The position numbers and the translations under genes were made by a program. Below the pieces are notes generated by a model, which saw nothing but the letters and a program-made list of their open reading frames with translations, did no database searches and was not told the DNA's origin. DNA of 64,000 bases from Bacteroidota bacterium (GTDB taxonomy: Bacteria > Bacteroidota > Bacteroidia > Cytophagales > Cyclobacteriaceae): positions 1 to 64,000 of the forward strand of contig JAFDYT010000019.1 in the NCBI GenBank assembly GCA_018266055.1, in the 5' to 3' direction. Numbering within the stretch: the stretch's first letter is position 1; each line of letters begins with the position of its first letter. Shown piece after piece: positions 18,716 to 35,541 of the stretch.

Positions 18716-19093
18716 TTACTCGTAAAACTCCTGCAGGGAGCCGAAGTAGCTTTCGTTCCAGCCTTCCACGATGTCGTCATAGTCGATATCGGGAATATTG
18801 GTGTGGCGCAGTTCGGCCGACGTGCCTGTGGCGTGCGAATGCAGAATGATGGTGACGATAGAAGGCTCCGCTTGCTCGCCGAAGTACCATTGCTGTACAA
18901 TCTTCTTGCTCTCGACAAACTCGATGTTCTTGCCGACGATGCTGCCGTCCCACAGGGAAAACTCAGAGCCCGGCTCGGTACTCATTTCGGCGGGTTCGCC
19001 CGTCCACAACTGCAATGTGGCAGGTAAGGTGAGGGCAAGGTACACGTCTTCCGGCGGTGCGGCGATCAGGTAGTATTTTTTGTAGTCTTTCAC
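18716..19093 (-). CDS. SRPBCC/AHSA1-like protein
   Basis: 125 residues from a GTG start. The chain has the START/Bet v1-like pattern: MKDYKKYYLIAAPPEDVYLALT, then LQLWTGEPAEMSTEPGSEFSLWDG, IVGKNIEFVESKKIVQQW, and a final helix YDDIVEGWNESYFGSLQEFY. Activator-of-Hsp90-like members of this superfamily bind small hydrophobic ligands or assist folding; the specific role here is unknown. It ends 2 bp from the DUF1080 stop codon, tail to tail. The 21-bp array begins 155 bp upstream of its start. Confidence 0.8.
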   Translation of the reverse strand: MKDYKKYYLIAAPPEDVYLALTLPATLQLWTGEPAEMSTEPGSEFSLWDGSIVGKNIEFVESKKIVQQWYFGEQAEPSIVTIILHSHATGTSAELRHTNIPDIDYDDIVEGWNESYFGSLQEFYE

Positions 19094-19246
19094 AGTGCCA
19101 AGGTCAGCACTTGGGGCGGTACTTACAACTATTGCGGTTCAATTTTAAGGCCAACGGCACACAGCCAAATCTACGGAATGGCGTCCTTAAGGCGTTTTTG
19201 ACCCTTATTTACCTATGTATGGCCTGCGTGACTCGTTTTGGTACCC

Positions 19247-19609
19247 ATGTCGTCTCACTTGAGTACCAAGTCGTCTCACTTAGGTACCAAGTCGTCTCAC
19301 TTGGGTACCAAGTCGTCTCATTTGGGTACCAAGTCAGATGAATTACTGCCCATGTCGTCTCACTTGGGTACCAAGTCAGATGACTTGCTGCCCATGTCGT
19401 CTCCTTTGGGTACCAAGTCAGATGACTTACTGCCTATGTCGTCTCATTTGGGTACCAAGTCAGATGACTTACTACCCATGTCGCCTCACTTGGGTACCAA
19501 GTCAGATGACTTACTACCCATGTCGTCTCATTTGGGTACCAAGTCAGATAACTTACTACCCATGTCGTCTAACTTAAGTGCCAAGTTAATCGACATGGGG
19601 CCTAAATAG
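19247..19609 (+). CDS. Possible heptapeptide-repeat ORF spanning the tandem array (doubtful)
   Basis: An ATG at 19247 opens a 120-residue frame made almost wholly of heptapeptides SSHLGTK and SDDLLPM, ending in a non-repeat tail. No clear ribosome-binding site precedes it. The other two plus-strand frames are also largely open, which is expected for a 21-bp unit without stops. In favour of coding, I count 19 unit-to-consensus substitutions, of which 12 fall on third positions of this frame, 6 on first and 1 on second, and 10 are synonymous. Treat as a hypothesis. Confidence 0.25.
   Translation: MSSHLSTKSSHLGTKSSHLGTKSSHLGTKSDELLPMSSHLGTKSDDLLPMSSPLGTKSDDLLPMSSHLGTKSDDLLPMSPHLGTKSDDLLPMSSHLGTKSDNLLPMSSNLSAKLIDMGPK
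19249..19584. repeat. 21-bp tandem array, 16 units (array 1)
   Basis: Sixteen consecutive 21-bp units, 336 bp in all. The order is four A units, then six B-A pairs, so a 42-bp higher-order repeat follows a 21-bp one. Every full A unit plus the next two bases contains the dyad ACTTGG-GTA-CCAAGT, with GGTACC at its heart. Each A-to-B junction contains AAGTCA-GA-TGACTT. Adjacent A and B dyad centres are 10.5 bp apart and repeat every 42 bp, so all face one side of the helix. There are no spacers, so this is not a CRISPR array. Last unit (19564-19584) is degenerate. Confidence 0.95.
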
Positions 19610-19776
19610 TCTGATGCAGGGGTAAACACTGTCGTCTTGATACCTGACCAATCTCATTTATGGCGTAAAAAAGGCGTTTTGGTCCTTAGCAAAGCGAATG
19701 GAGGACAGGAGAGGGGTCTTTCTTCCTGGGTTTTGAGATCATCAATAGCCATGCCTTGGTATTGATCAACGTGCTG

Positions 19777-20985
19777 TTACACATAACTTATCCACCACTT
19801 CGCTTTGTTTCTCTTCTTTAACTCATACCAATATACGCAGGCCGGATAAAGGATGACCACCACACCAATCCACAGCGCATAGGTACCTGGCAAAGTGAGA
19901 CCGAACTTACCCACGAGCAGGGGTGATGCTTTCCCCGGCGATCCTTTAAAAATCATGGTGCTGACCGGATGGCCTGCCGCCACTACAGCTATCAGCGCCA
20001 GCATATGAATAACCAGAATATGGAGCACATAATAAAACAGGGCCACGTTGCCAAACAATGAAACGGGTTTCATCCAGTCGCGCGTTTTTGACTCAAGTCC
20101 ACGCAGCAACAGCATGGCAACACCCAGGGTGGCACACAGAAAGTCTAAAGACGGTGGATATTTTTCTACATTTAAAAACGACATGATCGTCTTCGTTACT
20201 GTTTCCTGATGACTCCAGGGATATAAATCGCCATAGTTATTGACCGCGCGCAGGGCCACAAACAATAACAGACTGCCGCAGCCAAGCCAAAGCAGTGCTC
20301 TTCTTCGTGCGGCGGGTGCGAAATCTGCATCATACAATCGGCCGAGGCAATACCCCAATGTCATTACTCCGATCCACGGAATGAGGGGATAAGTAAACTG
20401 CAGGGAATAGTCGTTGGCAAGCGGGAATAACTTTGCCACGTGAAAGAATGACCAGAGCATATCGGCTGGCGATCCTTCGGCAAAGGAAACGCTGTCGAAG
20501 GCGTTGTGGCCGCACACAATCAAGGCCCCAATAAGTAGAATAATTTTGAAATTGAAGTGCAGAAGCAACGATAAGAATAGCATGCTGAACCCGATTGTTG
20601 AAATGATGTTGCTGGTGATGTGATGAAAGGCAGGATCGAAGTGCCATGCAAAATGGACCAGTGTCAGTTGCAAAGCAATTAACCATAGGCCGCGTGTGAA
20701 CAGAAAGAAAGCCGCTTCGGATTTTGATTTGCGCTGAGCGATGAAGTACGCCGAAGTACCCGCCAACAAAATAAAGGTAGGCGCGCACAAATGTGTGATG
20801 AGTCGCGTAGCAAAGATGGCAGGAGTAGTATGCTGCAAATCGGTAGGGCTGAAGAGATACGTACCGGCAAAAAAGTAAATGCGCACGTGATCTAAAGCCA
20901 TGATGATCATGACCAGTCCGCGAAGTACATCAATCGATTCGATACGGCCAATGCCGGCGGGCACTGGTTTAGTGTGAAGTGTCAT
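19777..20985 (-). CDS. DUF1624 / heparan-alpha-glucosaminide N-acetyltransferase-like membrane protein
   Basis: 402 residues with about ten membrane helices. The N-terminus carries the family signature RIESIDVLRGLVMIIMALDH, with the Asp-His expected in this acyltransferase family, then APTFILLAGTSAYF. Relatives transfer acetyl groups across the membrane to sugars (the human enzyme acetylates heparan glucosamine); in Bacteroidota the substrates are unknown. A possible 30-residue membrane peptide is encoded 35 bp upstream on the same strand. Confidence 0.88.
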   Translation of the reverse strand: MTLHTKPVPAGIGRIESIDVLRGLVMIIMALDHVRIYFFAGTYLFSPTDLQHTTPAIFATRLITHLCAPTFILLAGTSAYFIAQRKSKSEAAFFLFTRGLWLIALQLTLVHFAWHFDPAFHHITSNIISTIGFSMLFLSLLLHFNFKIILLIGALIVCGHNAFDSVSFAEGSPADMLWSFFHVAKLFPLANDYSLQFTYPLIPWIGVMTLGYCLGRLYDADFAPAARRRALLWLGCGSLLLFVALRAVNNYGDLYPWSHQETVTKTIMSFLNVEKYPPSLDFLCATLGVAMLLLRGLESKTRDWMKPVSLFGNVALFYYVLHILVIHMLALIAVVAAGHPVSTMIFKGSPGKASPLLVGKFGLTLPGTYALWIGVVVILYPACVYWYELKKRNKAKWWISYV

Positions 20986-30270: not shown

Positions 30271-31011
30271 ATGAACGCATTCACACCTTATTCATCTTCA
30301 CTTGATCACCGTAGCGGCGACTTGCGTGCGATGGAGCAAGAGGTGGATACTATAAAGGGTATGTGGAGTTATGTTTCTTCTGAAGTCGTACACGTTTATC
30401 AGGTAGAGCGTACGACTTCTCGTAATAACGTAACGACTTCTTGTAGAAACGTGAGGTTTACTCGTAGCAAGGTGACGGCTTCTCGTAATAACGTGATGAC
30501 TTCTCGCAGAAACGTGACGACTTCTCGTAATAAGGTGACGTTTTCTCGTAGAAACGTGACGACATCTCGTAGAAAAGTGAGGTTTCTTCGTAATAAGGTG
30601 ACGACTTCTCGCAGAAAGGTGATGACTTGTCGTAGAAACGTGACGCTTCTTCATAATAAGGTGACGACTTATCGCAGAAGCGTGATGACTTTTCGTAGAA
30701 ACGTGACGTTTCTTCGTAATAAAGTGACGACTTCTCGTAATTTCAGTACCATGCTTCAGAATTTACGTCGGAGTGCTTCATTCGCGCGTCTGTTCAGCGA
30801 ACAATGTGCTCTGTTCAGCGAACGGATCATGCGCATGGTCGCGCCGTTTTTTTGTTTTCTATCCACCGTCCGTCGTGTAGCCTCAGGCCATGACGTGATG
30901 TGTGTAAAAATACGTAGTCTGTTTTTCAGGCCGGGTGATTCCATGCACTACAACTGCAGTAACGTAGGGTATAAGGAAAACCCATTTGTTCTGCTGAAAA
31001 CAACCTGCTAG
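30271..31011 (+). CDS. Doubtful 246-codon ORF containing array 2
   Basis: An ATG at 30271 opens a frame that runs through the second 21-bp array (Arg/Thr/Val/Ser-rich heptapeptides such as RNKVTTS) and on for ~90 residues of basic, cysteine-containing sequence. The opposite strand is also open from 30654 to 30298 and there encodes heptapeptides SRHLITR / SRHVSTR. Codon-position variation shows no clear bias on either strand. A real protein product is uncertain; the two FNR-like boxes upstream suggest that something here is transcribed. Confidence 0.2.
   Translation: MNAFTPYSSSLDHRSGDLRAMEQEVDTIKGMWSYVSSEVVHVYQVERTTSRNNVTTSCRNVRFTRSKVTASRNNVMTSRRNVTTSRNKVTFSRRNVTTSRRKVRFLRNKVTTSRRKVMTCRRNVTLLHNKVTTYRRSVMTFRRNVTFLRNKVTTSRNFSTMLQNLRRSASFARLFSEQCALFSERIMRMVAPFFCFLSTVRRVASGHDVMCVKIRSLFFRPGDSMHYNCSNVGYKENPFVLLKTTC
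30400..30735. repeat. 21-bp tandem array, 15-16 units (array 2)
   Basis: Fifteen clear 21-bp units from 30421 plus a degenerate one at 30400, together 336 bp, the same size as array 1. Units alternate between a CGTAATAA type and a CGTAGAAA type; the last nine form three 63-bp super-repeats. The core AAnGTGAnG is nearly invariant. AGAA-type units are dyad-symmetric about TGA (best in unit 30694-30714, AGAAACG-TGA-CGTTTCT). No spacers. Read on the minus strand the units share the 8-mer AAGTCGTC with array 1. Confidence 0.95.
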
Positions 31012-31096
31012 TCGATTGATGTGTAAATAAATGTGTAACCGCAGTGATGCTGAAGCGGTGCGATTCATGAGTTGCACCGGGGAGGTTAACTGCACA

Positions 31097-31726
31097 ATGC
31101 CTAACAAAACGATGAAGTTTGAAGCCTACGCCGGTATAAGTAAACTACCAGTACCGGGGAAGTTAGCACGGGGGCGTGAGTGTATCATGCAGACGACGGG
31201 GAATCCGAATTTCCCGACGCCTATCCCCACAATGACTACGTTGGCCACGCTCGTCAACCAGGCGGAGGCGGCCTACCTGCAAGCAAAAGCAGGGGGCCCC
31301 GACGACACGGCGATGATGCGTGCCAAAGTAGAAGCGCTTGAGCTGGCGATGAAGCAATTCGTCAGTTACGTGGAAGCAATAGCCAACCAAAACCTGGCTA
31401 CTGCCGACGCGGTTATCCGTAGTGCTGGTCTGTTTGTGAAAACACGAACTACCAGAAAGACCTCCGAGTTCTCTGTATTTGCCACCGGCAACCCCGGTGA
31501 GGCAAAGATAGCGTACAAAGGAGTATCGCGCGGCTCCATTGAAGTTCAGATGAGTACCGACATCACCAACCCTGCCAACTGGCGCACCATTTACTTGGGC
31601 ACGCGCGGGCGCATCGTGCGCGGCGAGCTGGAGGTGAACACCCGGTATTACTTCAGAGCCCGCATGATCACTAAAAACGGTCCCAGCGAGTGGAGCGAAG
31701 TACGGATCATCTACCTGCCCGCCTAA
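31097..31726 (+). CDS. Fibronectin type III-like protein of unknown function
   Basis: 209 residues from the ATG at 31097, chosen because GGGGAGG lies 11 bp before it; an ATG five codons later is possible and the frame extends upstream to 31031. There is no signal peptide. The N-terminal half is helical (LATLVNQAEAAYLQAKAGG, then an Ala-rich helix with VSYVEAIANQN). The C-terminal ~85 residues look like an FnIII module (GSIEVQMSTD ... YYFRARMITKNGPSEWSEV). Proteins of this layout recur as singletons in Bacteroidota; I know no function. It ends at a strong terminator. Confidence 0.75.
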   Translation: MPNKTMKFEAYAGISKLPVPGKLARGRECIMQTTGNPNFPTPIPTMTTLATLVNQAEAAYLQAKAGGPDDTAMMRAKVEALELAMKQFVSYVEAIANQNLATADAVIRSAGLFVKTRTTRKTSEFSVFATGNPGEAKIAYKGVSRGSIEVQMSTDITNPANWRTIYLGTRGRIVRGELEVNTRYYFRARMITKNGPSEWSEVRIIYLPA

Positions 31727-34346: not shown

Positions 34347-34381
34347 CTTTCTTCAATCAAGGAATTTCTATAAACTTCGTT

Positions 34382-34441
34382 ATTGTTGGTCTCCCGACCA
34401 ACAATCTTACCTTGGTTATTGTTGGTCTCCCGACCGACAAT
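34382..34441. repeat. REP palindrome pair upstream of RAYT
   Basis: Two 24-bp imperfect palindromes, ATTGTTGGTC-TCCC-GACCAACAAT (34382-34405) and a copy with one change (34418-34441), in direct orientation and 36 bp apart. Copies downstream of the transposase gene (35023, 35192) are in inverted orientation. Confidence 0.9.
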
Positions 34442-34487
34442 CTTACTCTAAAGTATTTTGTTTCTGATTTCTGCATTATTTTCGATT

Positions 34488-35221: not shown

Positions 35222-35541
35222 TCTTCGATCAAGGAATTTCTATAAACATATGATCCCTTCGGGATCGCAGCTGCATAGAGGATTGAATTGCAGTTACTAC
35301 CGATGCCGAAGGCATCGCATGTGTATAGCAAAAGACTTTACTTGACGACGCGACCCCGAAGGGGTCGAATGTAACGTGTTGTCTTCGATCAAGGAATTTC
35401 TATAAACATATGATCCCTTCGGGATCGCAGCTGCATAGAGGATTGAATTGCAGTTACTACCGATGCCGAAGGCATCGCATGTGTATAGCAAAAGACTTTA
35501 CTTGACGACACGACCCCGAAGGGGTCGAATGTGACGTGTGC
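35222..35541. repeat. 160-bp tandem duplication with evenly spaced triloop hairpins
   Basis: Two near-identical 160-bp copies (35222-35381 and 35382-35541). Each holds three 6-bp-stem hairpins with TTC or GAA loops: GATCCC-TTC-GGGATC, GATGCC-GAA-GGCATC and GACCCC-GAA-GGGGTC, starting at 35252, 35302 and 35352, exactly 50 bp apart (and +160 in copy 2). The copies begin right where the second REP repeat ends. With the REP region this makes 643 bp without a gene before 35659. Confidence 0.95.

Follow-up and report, generated by a model that had tools for sequence, protein, structure and literature searches.

A tandem array of 21-bp dyad units in a Cyclobacteriaceae genome as a putative dispersed copy of a two-turn array class linked to FN3-like genes in Bacteroidota

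Tandem arrays upstream of a family of FN3-like genes, both in the genome investigated here and in other Bacteroidota, share a conserved period of about two helical turns while their unit sequences are not conserved. The association between the gene family and this period is one in which we place high confidence. The array W1, located in the 64 000-bp stretch of Cyclobacteriaceae DNA that was analysed (contig JAFDYT010000019.1, the window), is by its homology an orphan, dispersed copy of this array class, and its main interest lies outside its own coordinates, in a link between period and gene family that extends over several families of the phylum. The features of the window are shown in Table 1.

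Table 1. Arrays and genes located in the window
Feature	Position	Strand	Description
Array W1	19249..19584	.	16 x 21 bp; A-unit consensus GTCGTCTCACTTGGGTACCAA, B-unit consensus GTCAGATGACTTACTNCCCAT
Decayed edge unit	19585..19605	.	Directly after W1; partly decayed; from the unit-wise listing
AHSA1-like gene (PF08327)	18716..19093	-	Start ~156 bp from W1
Acyltransferase-like gene (HGSNAT_cat, PF07786)	19777..20985	-	End ~193 bp from W1
Array W2	30412..30740	.	21-bp units, 63-bp higher-order period; part of an FN3 module
FN3-like gene after W2	31112..31726	+	ORF opens at 31031; family match from 31112

The initial annotation had described W1 as a 336-bp block of 16 exact 21-bp units, four A units followed by six B-A pairs, and this layout was confirmed at the positions given in Table 1; the block was gap-free and without indels. 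TRF reported periods of 42, 84 and 126, and W1 shares the period of 20–21 bp, or a multiple of it, that marks the FN3-linked array class. Nine matches to ACTTGGGTACCAAGT were found in W1 at up to two mismatches (three perfect, 0.14 expected) and six to AAGTCAGATGACTT at up to one mismatch (four perfect, 0.00 expected). The annotated dyads, ACTTGG-GTA-CCAAGT in the A units and AAGTCA-GA-TGACTT at the A-to-B junctions, were therefore present as described, but perfect only in 3 of 10 A units and in four of the six junctions. The distance of 10.5 bp between A and B dyad centres (19369 and 19379.5, for example) follows from the matched positions; that all dyads share one helical face is a consequence of the period and adds no independent evidence. 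Dyad symmetry of the 42-bp consensus was only modestly above that of letter shuffles (p 0.035 by paired positions and 0.084 by arm length), and the whole of W1 folded better than versions with permuted unit columns, on either strand (z -2.8 and -3.5). Unique spacers between repeats, as expected of a CRISPR, were absent, the units being in gap-free tandem, and the view that W1 is of an unusual kind, has its dyads in register and fits no known repeat class was upheld by negative results from Rfam and the literature. An imperfect direct repeat of ~30 bp (ATGGCGT...AAGGCGTTTT...), seen by eye, flanks W1 at 19178-19208 and 19660-19689, and could be an insertion footprint or chance. Elsewhere in the window, a 160-bp direct repeat in two copies, 98% alike, was observed at 35222-35539, and a 36-bp unit occurring twice, which contains an inverted repeat around GGTCTCCCGACC, at 34375-34446.

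The FN3-like family gene encodes a protein of ~203 aa with a C-terminal FN3-like domain. The assignment is drawn from weak Pfam matches and from PDB profile matches to FN3 domains (best E 2e-5), and sequence search supports the FN3 fold for the C-terminal part only; a single-sequence model of the protein encoded in the window had a mean pLDDT of 44. The own genome (G000; 4.79 Mb in 21 contigs) yielded 16 family matches, two of which are pieces at contig ends. A periodic array was located upstream of all 14 own genes that have upstream sequence, that of C17:494561 being degenerate, and two of these arrays had periods of 41 and 20 bp. Upstream arrays were also found at family genes in the genus, in the order and in other families of the phylum. 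Distribution of the family is patchy, with matches in 10 of 58 genomes of the genus (E 1e-3) and 8 of 395 genomes of the phylum (E 1e-8), each count including the own genome and two genomes matched via the FN3 part only. No match to the family was found on phage or plasmid sequences in IMG/VR, PLSDB or INPHARED.

Upstream periodicity was compared by a uniform statistic, the best lag from 12 to 70 within the last 1 kb before the gene, with a score cut-off of 0.55 and a two-turn lag set of 20, 21, 40, 41, 42, 62 and 63. The top lag fell within the two-turn set in 45/45 FN3 family genes (14 own, 31 elsewhere in the phylum), which are not all independent because some are mutual orthologues or paralogues (e.g. 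L239/L240), compared with 3/29 AHSA1 loci, 14/79 acyltransferase loci and 70/500 random 1-kb pieces of the own genome. A score of at least 0.55 was reached by 41 of the 45 and by none of the 29 AHSA1 loci, one of the 79 acyltransferase loci and eight of the 500 random pieces. The four family genes below the cut-off, L199, L208, L245 and L247, had top lags of 20, 63, 63 and 41 respectively. Five of the 41 arrays above it had a top lag of 40 or 41 (with a base period of 20 in one), a spacing that is off the codon and remains at about two turns. A separate comparison of 41 loci gave no common motif, only A/T-rich words near the gene and, within this genome, a few leader words.

The 45 genes were those with at least 153 of 204 model positions matched and a fetched locus with upstream sequence; they include the own gene C8:304991, which is cut by a contig end. 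Left out were C17:15404 (the FN3 part of a 1553-aa frame), the contig-end pieces C2:5-217 and C7:180167-180379, which are without upstream sequence, the genus matches L193 and L194 (FN3 part only) and other partial FN3 matches, five further near-full matches from G108 whose loci were not fetched, and L248 and L249, which match in the FN3 part only and have no 21-bp lag. Two further family genes of G583, outside the 45, also have arrays. For the controls, 47 relatives had an AHSA1 match and the locus was fetched for 29 of them; 79 of 80 acyltransferase loci were used, one being too short.

Arrays of other sequence were recovered in the own genome by protein-level search. A sample of 1.24 Mb, comprising the window and 60 further stretches, contained ten long arrays with periods of 21 bp or a multiple and with units mostly unrelated to one another; array densities were not estimated, because the sample was partly chosen to hold known arrays. 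Six of the ten were FN3-linked, homologous downstream genes being detected by BLAST at four, W2 among them, with C1 and C6 added from the family matches. Only four homologous pairs were identified among 19 arrays of this genome at E 1e-4. The array at C3:103465 matched one near C8:136376 (74.7% over 510 bp), that at C3:183208 matched one at C8:94558 (70.8% over 500 bp) and the C1 array matched one at the end of C2 (86.9% over 122 bp). W2 is unrelated to W1 in sequence. Several other repeats were observed in the course of this survey: heptamer arrays (TACCTCG / GAGGTAC) upstream of several FN3 modules (L163 493-640, L164 3115-3153 and L172 3516-3594), further 7- and 14-bp arrays downstream of FN3 modules, and an array of period 41 with 7.6 copies (L137 9313-9667; C17 ~689313), for which no adjoining family gene was found here. 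A small contig (L154, in C5, 4564 bp) stands apart from the others in its TAG and GCC-rich simple repeats and is possibly contamination.

W1 itself has no FN3-like gene nearby among the 16 family matches of the genome. Its DNA occurs at one other place in the genome, C12:4527-4835, where an array matching W1 at 78.5% over 303 bp belongs to an FN3 module on the opposite strand; the minus strand of W1 agrees with the C12 consensus at 36/42 positions, and the plus strand at 26 of 42. Of the dyads, AAGTC-N4-GACTT is retained in the sister array in C12, whereas that of the A units (ACTTGG/CCAAGT) is not. Four arrays of the sample are orphans, and an FN3-linked homologue was found in the genome for three of them (W1, C3:103465 and C3:183208); the fourth, C2:53466, had no FN3-linked homologue among the arrays compared. 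These data place W1, as far as homology can indicate, as an orphan and dispersed copy of the FN3-linked array class.

The AHSA1-like gene beside W1 is present in 48/62 genomes of the genus, own included, and no array was found upstream of the orthologous gene in any of the 29 relatives, all of other species, whose locus was fetched. A scan of genome contigs with the acyltransferase detected no close relative of the W1 locus (best identity 51%) and was used as a control only. It had been stated beforehand that W1 would be a neutral minisatellite if relatives carried the locus without the period or the dyads. This is the case at 29 of 29 AHSA1 loci of other species, but neutrality does not follow for the class as a whole, since the class is kept upstream of FN3-like genes (45/45). 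The earlier interpretation of W1 was, overall, partly supported.

Evidence for rapid change of the units was obtained from closely related loci. The FN3-like proteins at C12 and C17 are 94% identical, and on the leader side the flanks match at 85% over 417 bp, up to a point 3-15 bp into the arrays. On the far side, similarity returns 10-27 bp after the arrays with a 38-bp segment (79%), and the main block, 91% over 922 bp, begins 47 and 178 bp after them; resemblance between the two loci is confined to the module and the sequence close to it. The arrays themselves gave no match at E 10. These near-identical paralogues, with flanks that still match, have entirely different unit sequences. In a genus of another family (g65), two unit types occur at loci whose spacer and gene are similar; the types have AATTTCAWTTT in common and differ in the palindromic part, and one orphan array of g65 passes from one unit type into the other. 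This mixing of types, together with the replacement of arrays between C12 and C17, points to turnover of units inside arrays. Array-only copies also exist in g65; two of these, L257 and L258, are located upstream of an orthologous gene in two species (orthology assigned by eye), which we take to be exonuclease III-like.

Constraint on an array was assessed at a single locus of one genus, by comparison of three orthologues. When the array was divided into five 50-column blocks, three of these were 94% identical three ways and the remaining two were affected by a 42-bp indel, one of the species having exactly 42 extra bp; gene blocks of the same loci were 84-100% identical and spacer blocks 74-92%. 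A terminator-like stem with a T-run was seen by eye after the array of this locus.

The reading that we prefer, tentatively and at slightly less than an even chance, is that W1 is an orphan copy of the two-turn array class and that these arrays constitute a cis-acting dyad platform read by a putative protein. Such a platform would be a row of dyad units of about two turns each in the nucleic acid; its candidate reader would be a dimeric or polymerizing protein, which might recognize it mainly via spacing and self-complementarity, and the array would control or mark the gene located ~0.05-0.7 kb downstream. Units may be homogenized by unequal exchange, which would let the sequence change quickly and leave the spacing and the dyad character intact. 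On this view W1, located ~156 bp upstream of a core gene, and other orphans would be platforms that have dispersed, with the unit of an FN3 locus. Confidence in this mechanism is moderate to low. The unrelated arrays beside 94%-identical proteins at C12 and C17 speak against the linked protein itself recognizing a specific sequence. Consensus units of 31 arrays exceeded letter shuffles in dyad symmetry (Fisher p 8e-5 for pairs, 0.002 for arms), W1 and C3b being left out of the combined value as relatives of C12 and C8; within this genome alone the excess was modest and marginal (p 0.053 and 0.23). This modest excess counts against the platform, as do the lack of a motif common to 41 loci compared, the 6/33 arrays that fold no better than scrambled versions on the sense strand, and the copies of an array, which show no covariation at the best dyad centre.

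The folding of the arrays may also be interpreted at the level of RNA. Arrays transcribed as chains of 21-nt hairpins could form a structured leader or a separate small RNA that has the FN3-like gene as its partner or its target, and the orphans would then be further loci of the same RNA; we judge this unlikely. It would account for the folding scores, which against column-permuted arrays (n=33) averaged z -1.9 for sense and -1.7 for antisense, with positive sense values in the six arrays mentioned above, W2 and C8 among them. The sense and antisense values did not differ (p 0.36), and wobble states over all arrays were strand-symmetric (63 G.T vs 63 A.C), so there is no overall preference for the sense strand. 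Six arrays of g65, several being orthologues, favoured the sense strand in wobble states, with G.T to A.C at 18 to 5, a bias that fits RNA better, and units of this genus can be drawn as a hairpin with a 7-bp stem and a 7-nt loop near TTTCAWT (86% paired vs 74% in shuffles), the loop being kept between the two unit types and the stem changed on both sides. Covariation in 42 units, chosen out of 74 distinct ones, scored 0.36 vs 0.15 in shuffles, but much of this two-sided change represents one inherited split between the unit types. The terminator-like stem with its T-run after a g65 array, seen by eye, is also consistent with transcription. Against it, no copy-level covariation was detected at the best dyad centre, covariation within exceeding that between in 7/27 arrays with a choice of centre that biases the result downwards, and no Rfam family reached its curated cut-off in 15 loci, four matches with E <= 0.1 being far below the cut-offs. 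From the folding, wobble and covariation results together, we favour a DNA platform over a chain of RNA hairpins.

Neutral amplification would dispense with a reader altogether. Minisatellites could be amplified beside FN3-like genes, with the 21-bp period arising from the amplification mechanism and the dyads aiding slippage, and such an origin is compatible with copy-number change in whole units, with the rapid turnover described above and the heptamer arrays nearby, and with the absence of W1 from relatives. It does not readily explain the 45/45 linkage across families, the degenerate arrays that still keep the period, or array conservation equal to that of the gene among the three orthologues (one locus only), and we consider it improbable.

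A coding function was also assessed. W1 is spanned by an ORF (19238-19609) in which one frame is open and reads as heptads, SSHLGTK/SDDLLPM; a small repetitive protein would then be encoded upstream of the FN3-like gene. The best point in its favour is that the arrays of C12, C17 and C8 read on in frame from a common leader peptide. No frame is open, however, on the W1 strand corresponding to the sense strand of C12, and open frames in general occurred at the level of chance: where the period is a multiple of 21, a sense frame was open in 13/15 arrays of this genome and in 8/14 of relatives, against 10.8 and 7.2 expected from permuted unit columns. Both strands lack an open frame in six of 33 tightly bounded arrays, some arrays have periods of 20, 40 or 41 bp, and no synonymous excess was detected in any frame of ten arrays, a comparison of low power with only 7-29 distinct changes each. 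Coding heptads were therefore rejected as a general reading; coding is not supported for the arrays, an open frame is not required, and a protein product is very unlikely.

Terminal inverted repeats were sought in the 300-bp flanks of eight arrays, where the best inverted scores were 15-22 (match 2; print limit 28), W1 scoring 18 for inverted and 23 for direct repeats, and strong terminal repeats beside the arrays were rejected in all eight. The least probable reading is that the array, recognized as a folded structure, is where a mobile FN3 module recombines or transposes. In its favour, the similarity of C12 and C17 is confined to the module and near flanks, array-only copies are dispersed, a tyrosine-recombinase-like ORF (L002 2-871, by eye) adjoins the C12 array and an imperfect direct repeat lies on both sides of W1. 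Against it, the eight arrays lack strong terminal inverted or direct repeats, the array sits inside the module, and the orthologous pair L252/L240 has a second homologous block further downstream, 90% alike over 315 bp; these two loci may thus not have moved at all.

The cis-acting DNA platform remains our preferred reading. A wider proposal, in which a small FN3-domain protein and an upstream array read by its two-turn period and self-complementarity, in place of its sequence, would form a phylum-wide unit, with private, fast-changing repeat units at each locus and with orphans such as W1 extending each code to other genes, is more doubtful. Sequence search can hardly detect a feature whose spacing is conserved across families of a phylum but whose letters vary freely. 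Should the linkage be borne out, an uncharacterized gene family gains a constant cis element and it becomes testable what reads a 21-bp period without reading its sequence; near-identical paralogues with unrelated arrays are natural experiments for this.

In the open-access literature, which includes few subscription journals, no description of such arrays or of a link to an FN3-like gene was found, an absence that is not proof. Iterons and tandem operator arrays are tandem sites spaced by about two helical turns upstream of a gene, with one recognition sequence kept. The two-turn spacing upstream of a gene is alike in the arrays described here, putative platforms in which the spacing is kept and the sequence is not. 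REP and BIME elements are dispersed, intergenic palindromic repeats, and REPs have a common sequence genome-wide, whereas the present arrays are gap-free, have 21-bp units and are tied to one gene family. The BrickBuilt/PgRS elements of Porphyromonas gingivalis are described as minisatellite-carrying MITEs with gap-free tandem units of 23 or 41 nt (PMC4596501). Their description shows further likenesses, including occurrence in Bacteroidota, an intergenic location, predicted folding, leader and tail segments, and differences in unit number, which there are between strains (PMC4596501). The elements differ in that each BrickBuilt/PgRS family repeats a single unit sequence throughout the genome and has terminal inverted repeats of IS5-like type (PMC4596501), while here the units differ from locus to locus, with four homologous pairs among 19 arrays in place of the single genome-wide unit of a MITE-borne minisatellite, and no strong terminal repeats were found. 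Unlike BrickBuilt/PgRS as described (PMC4596501), the arrays reported here have a linked gene family.
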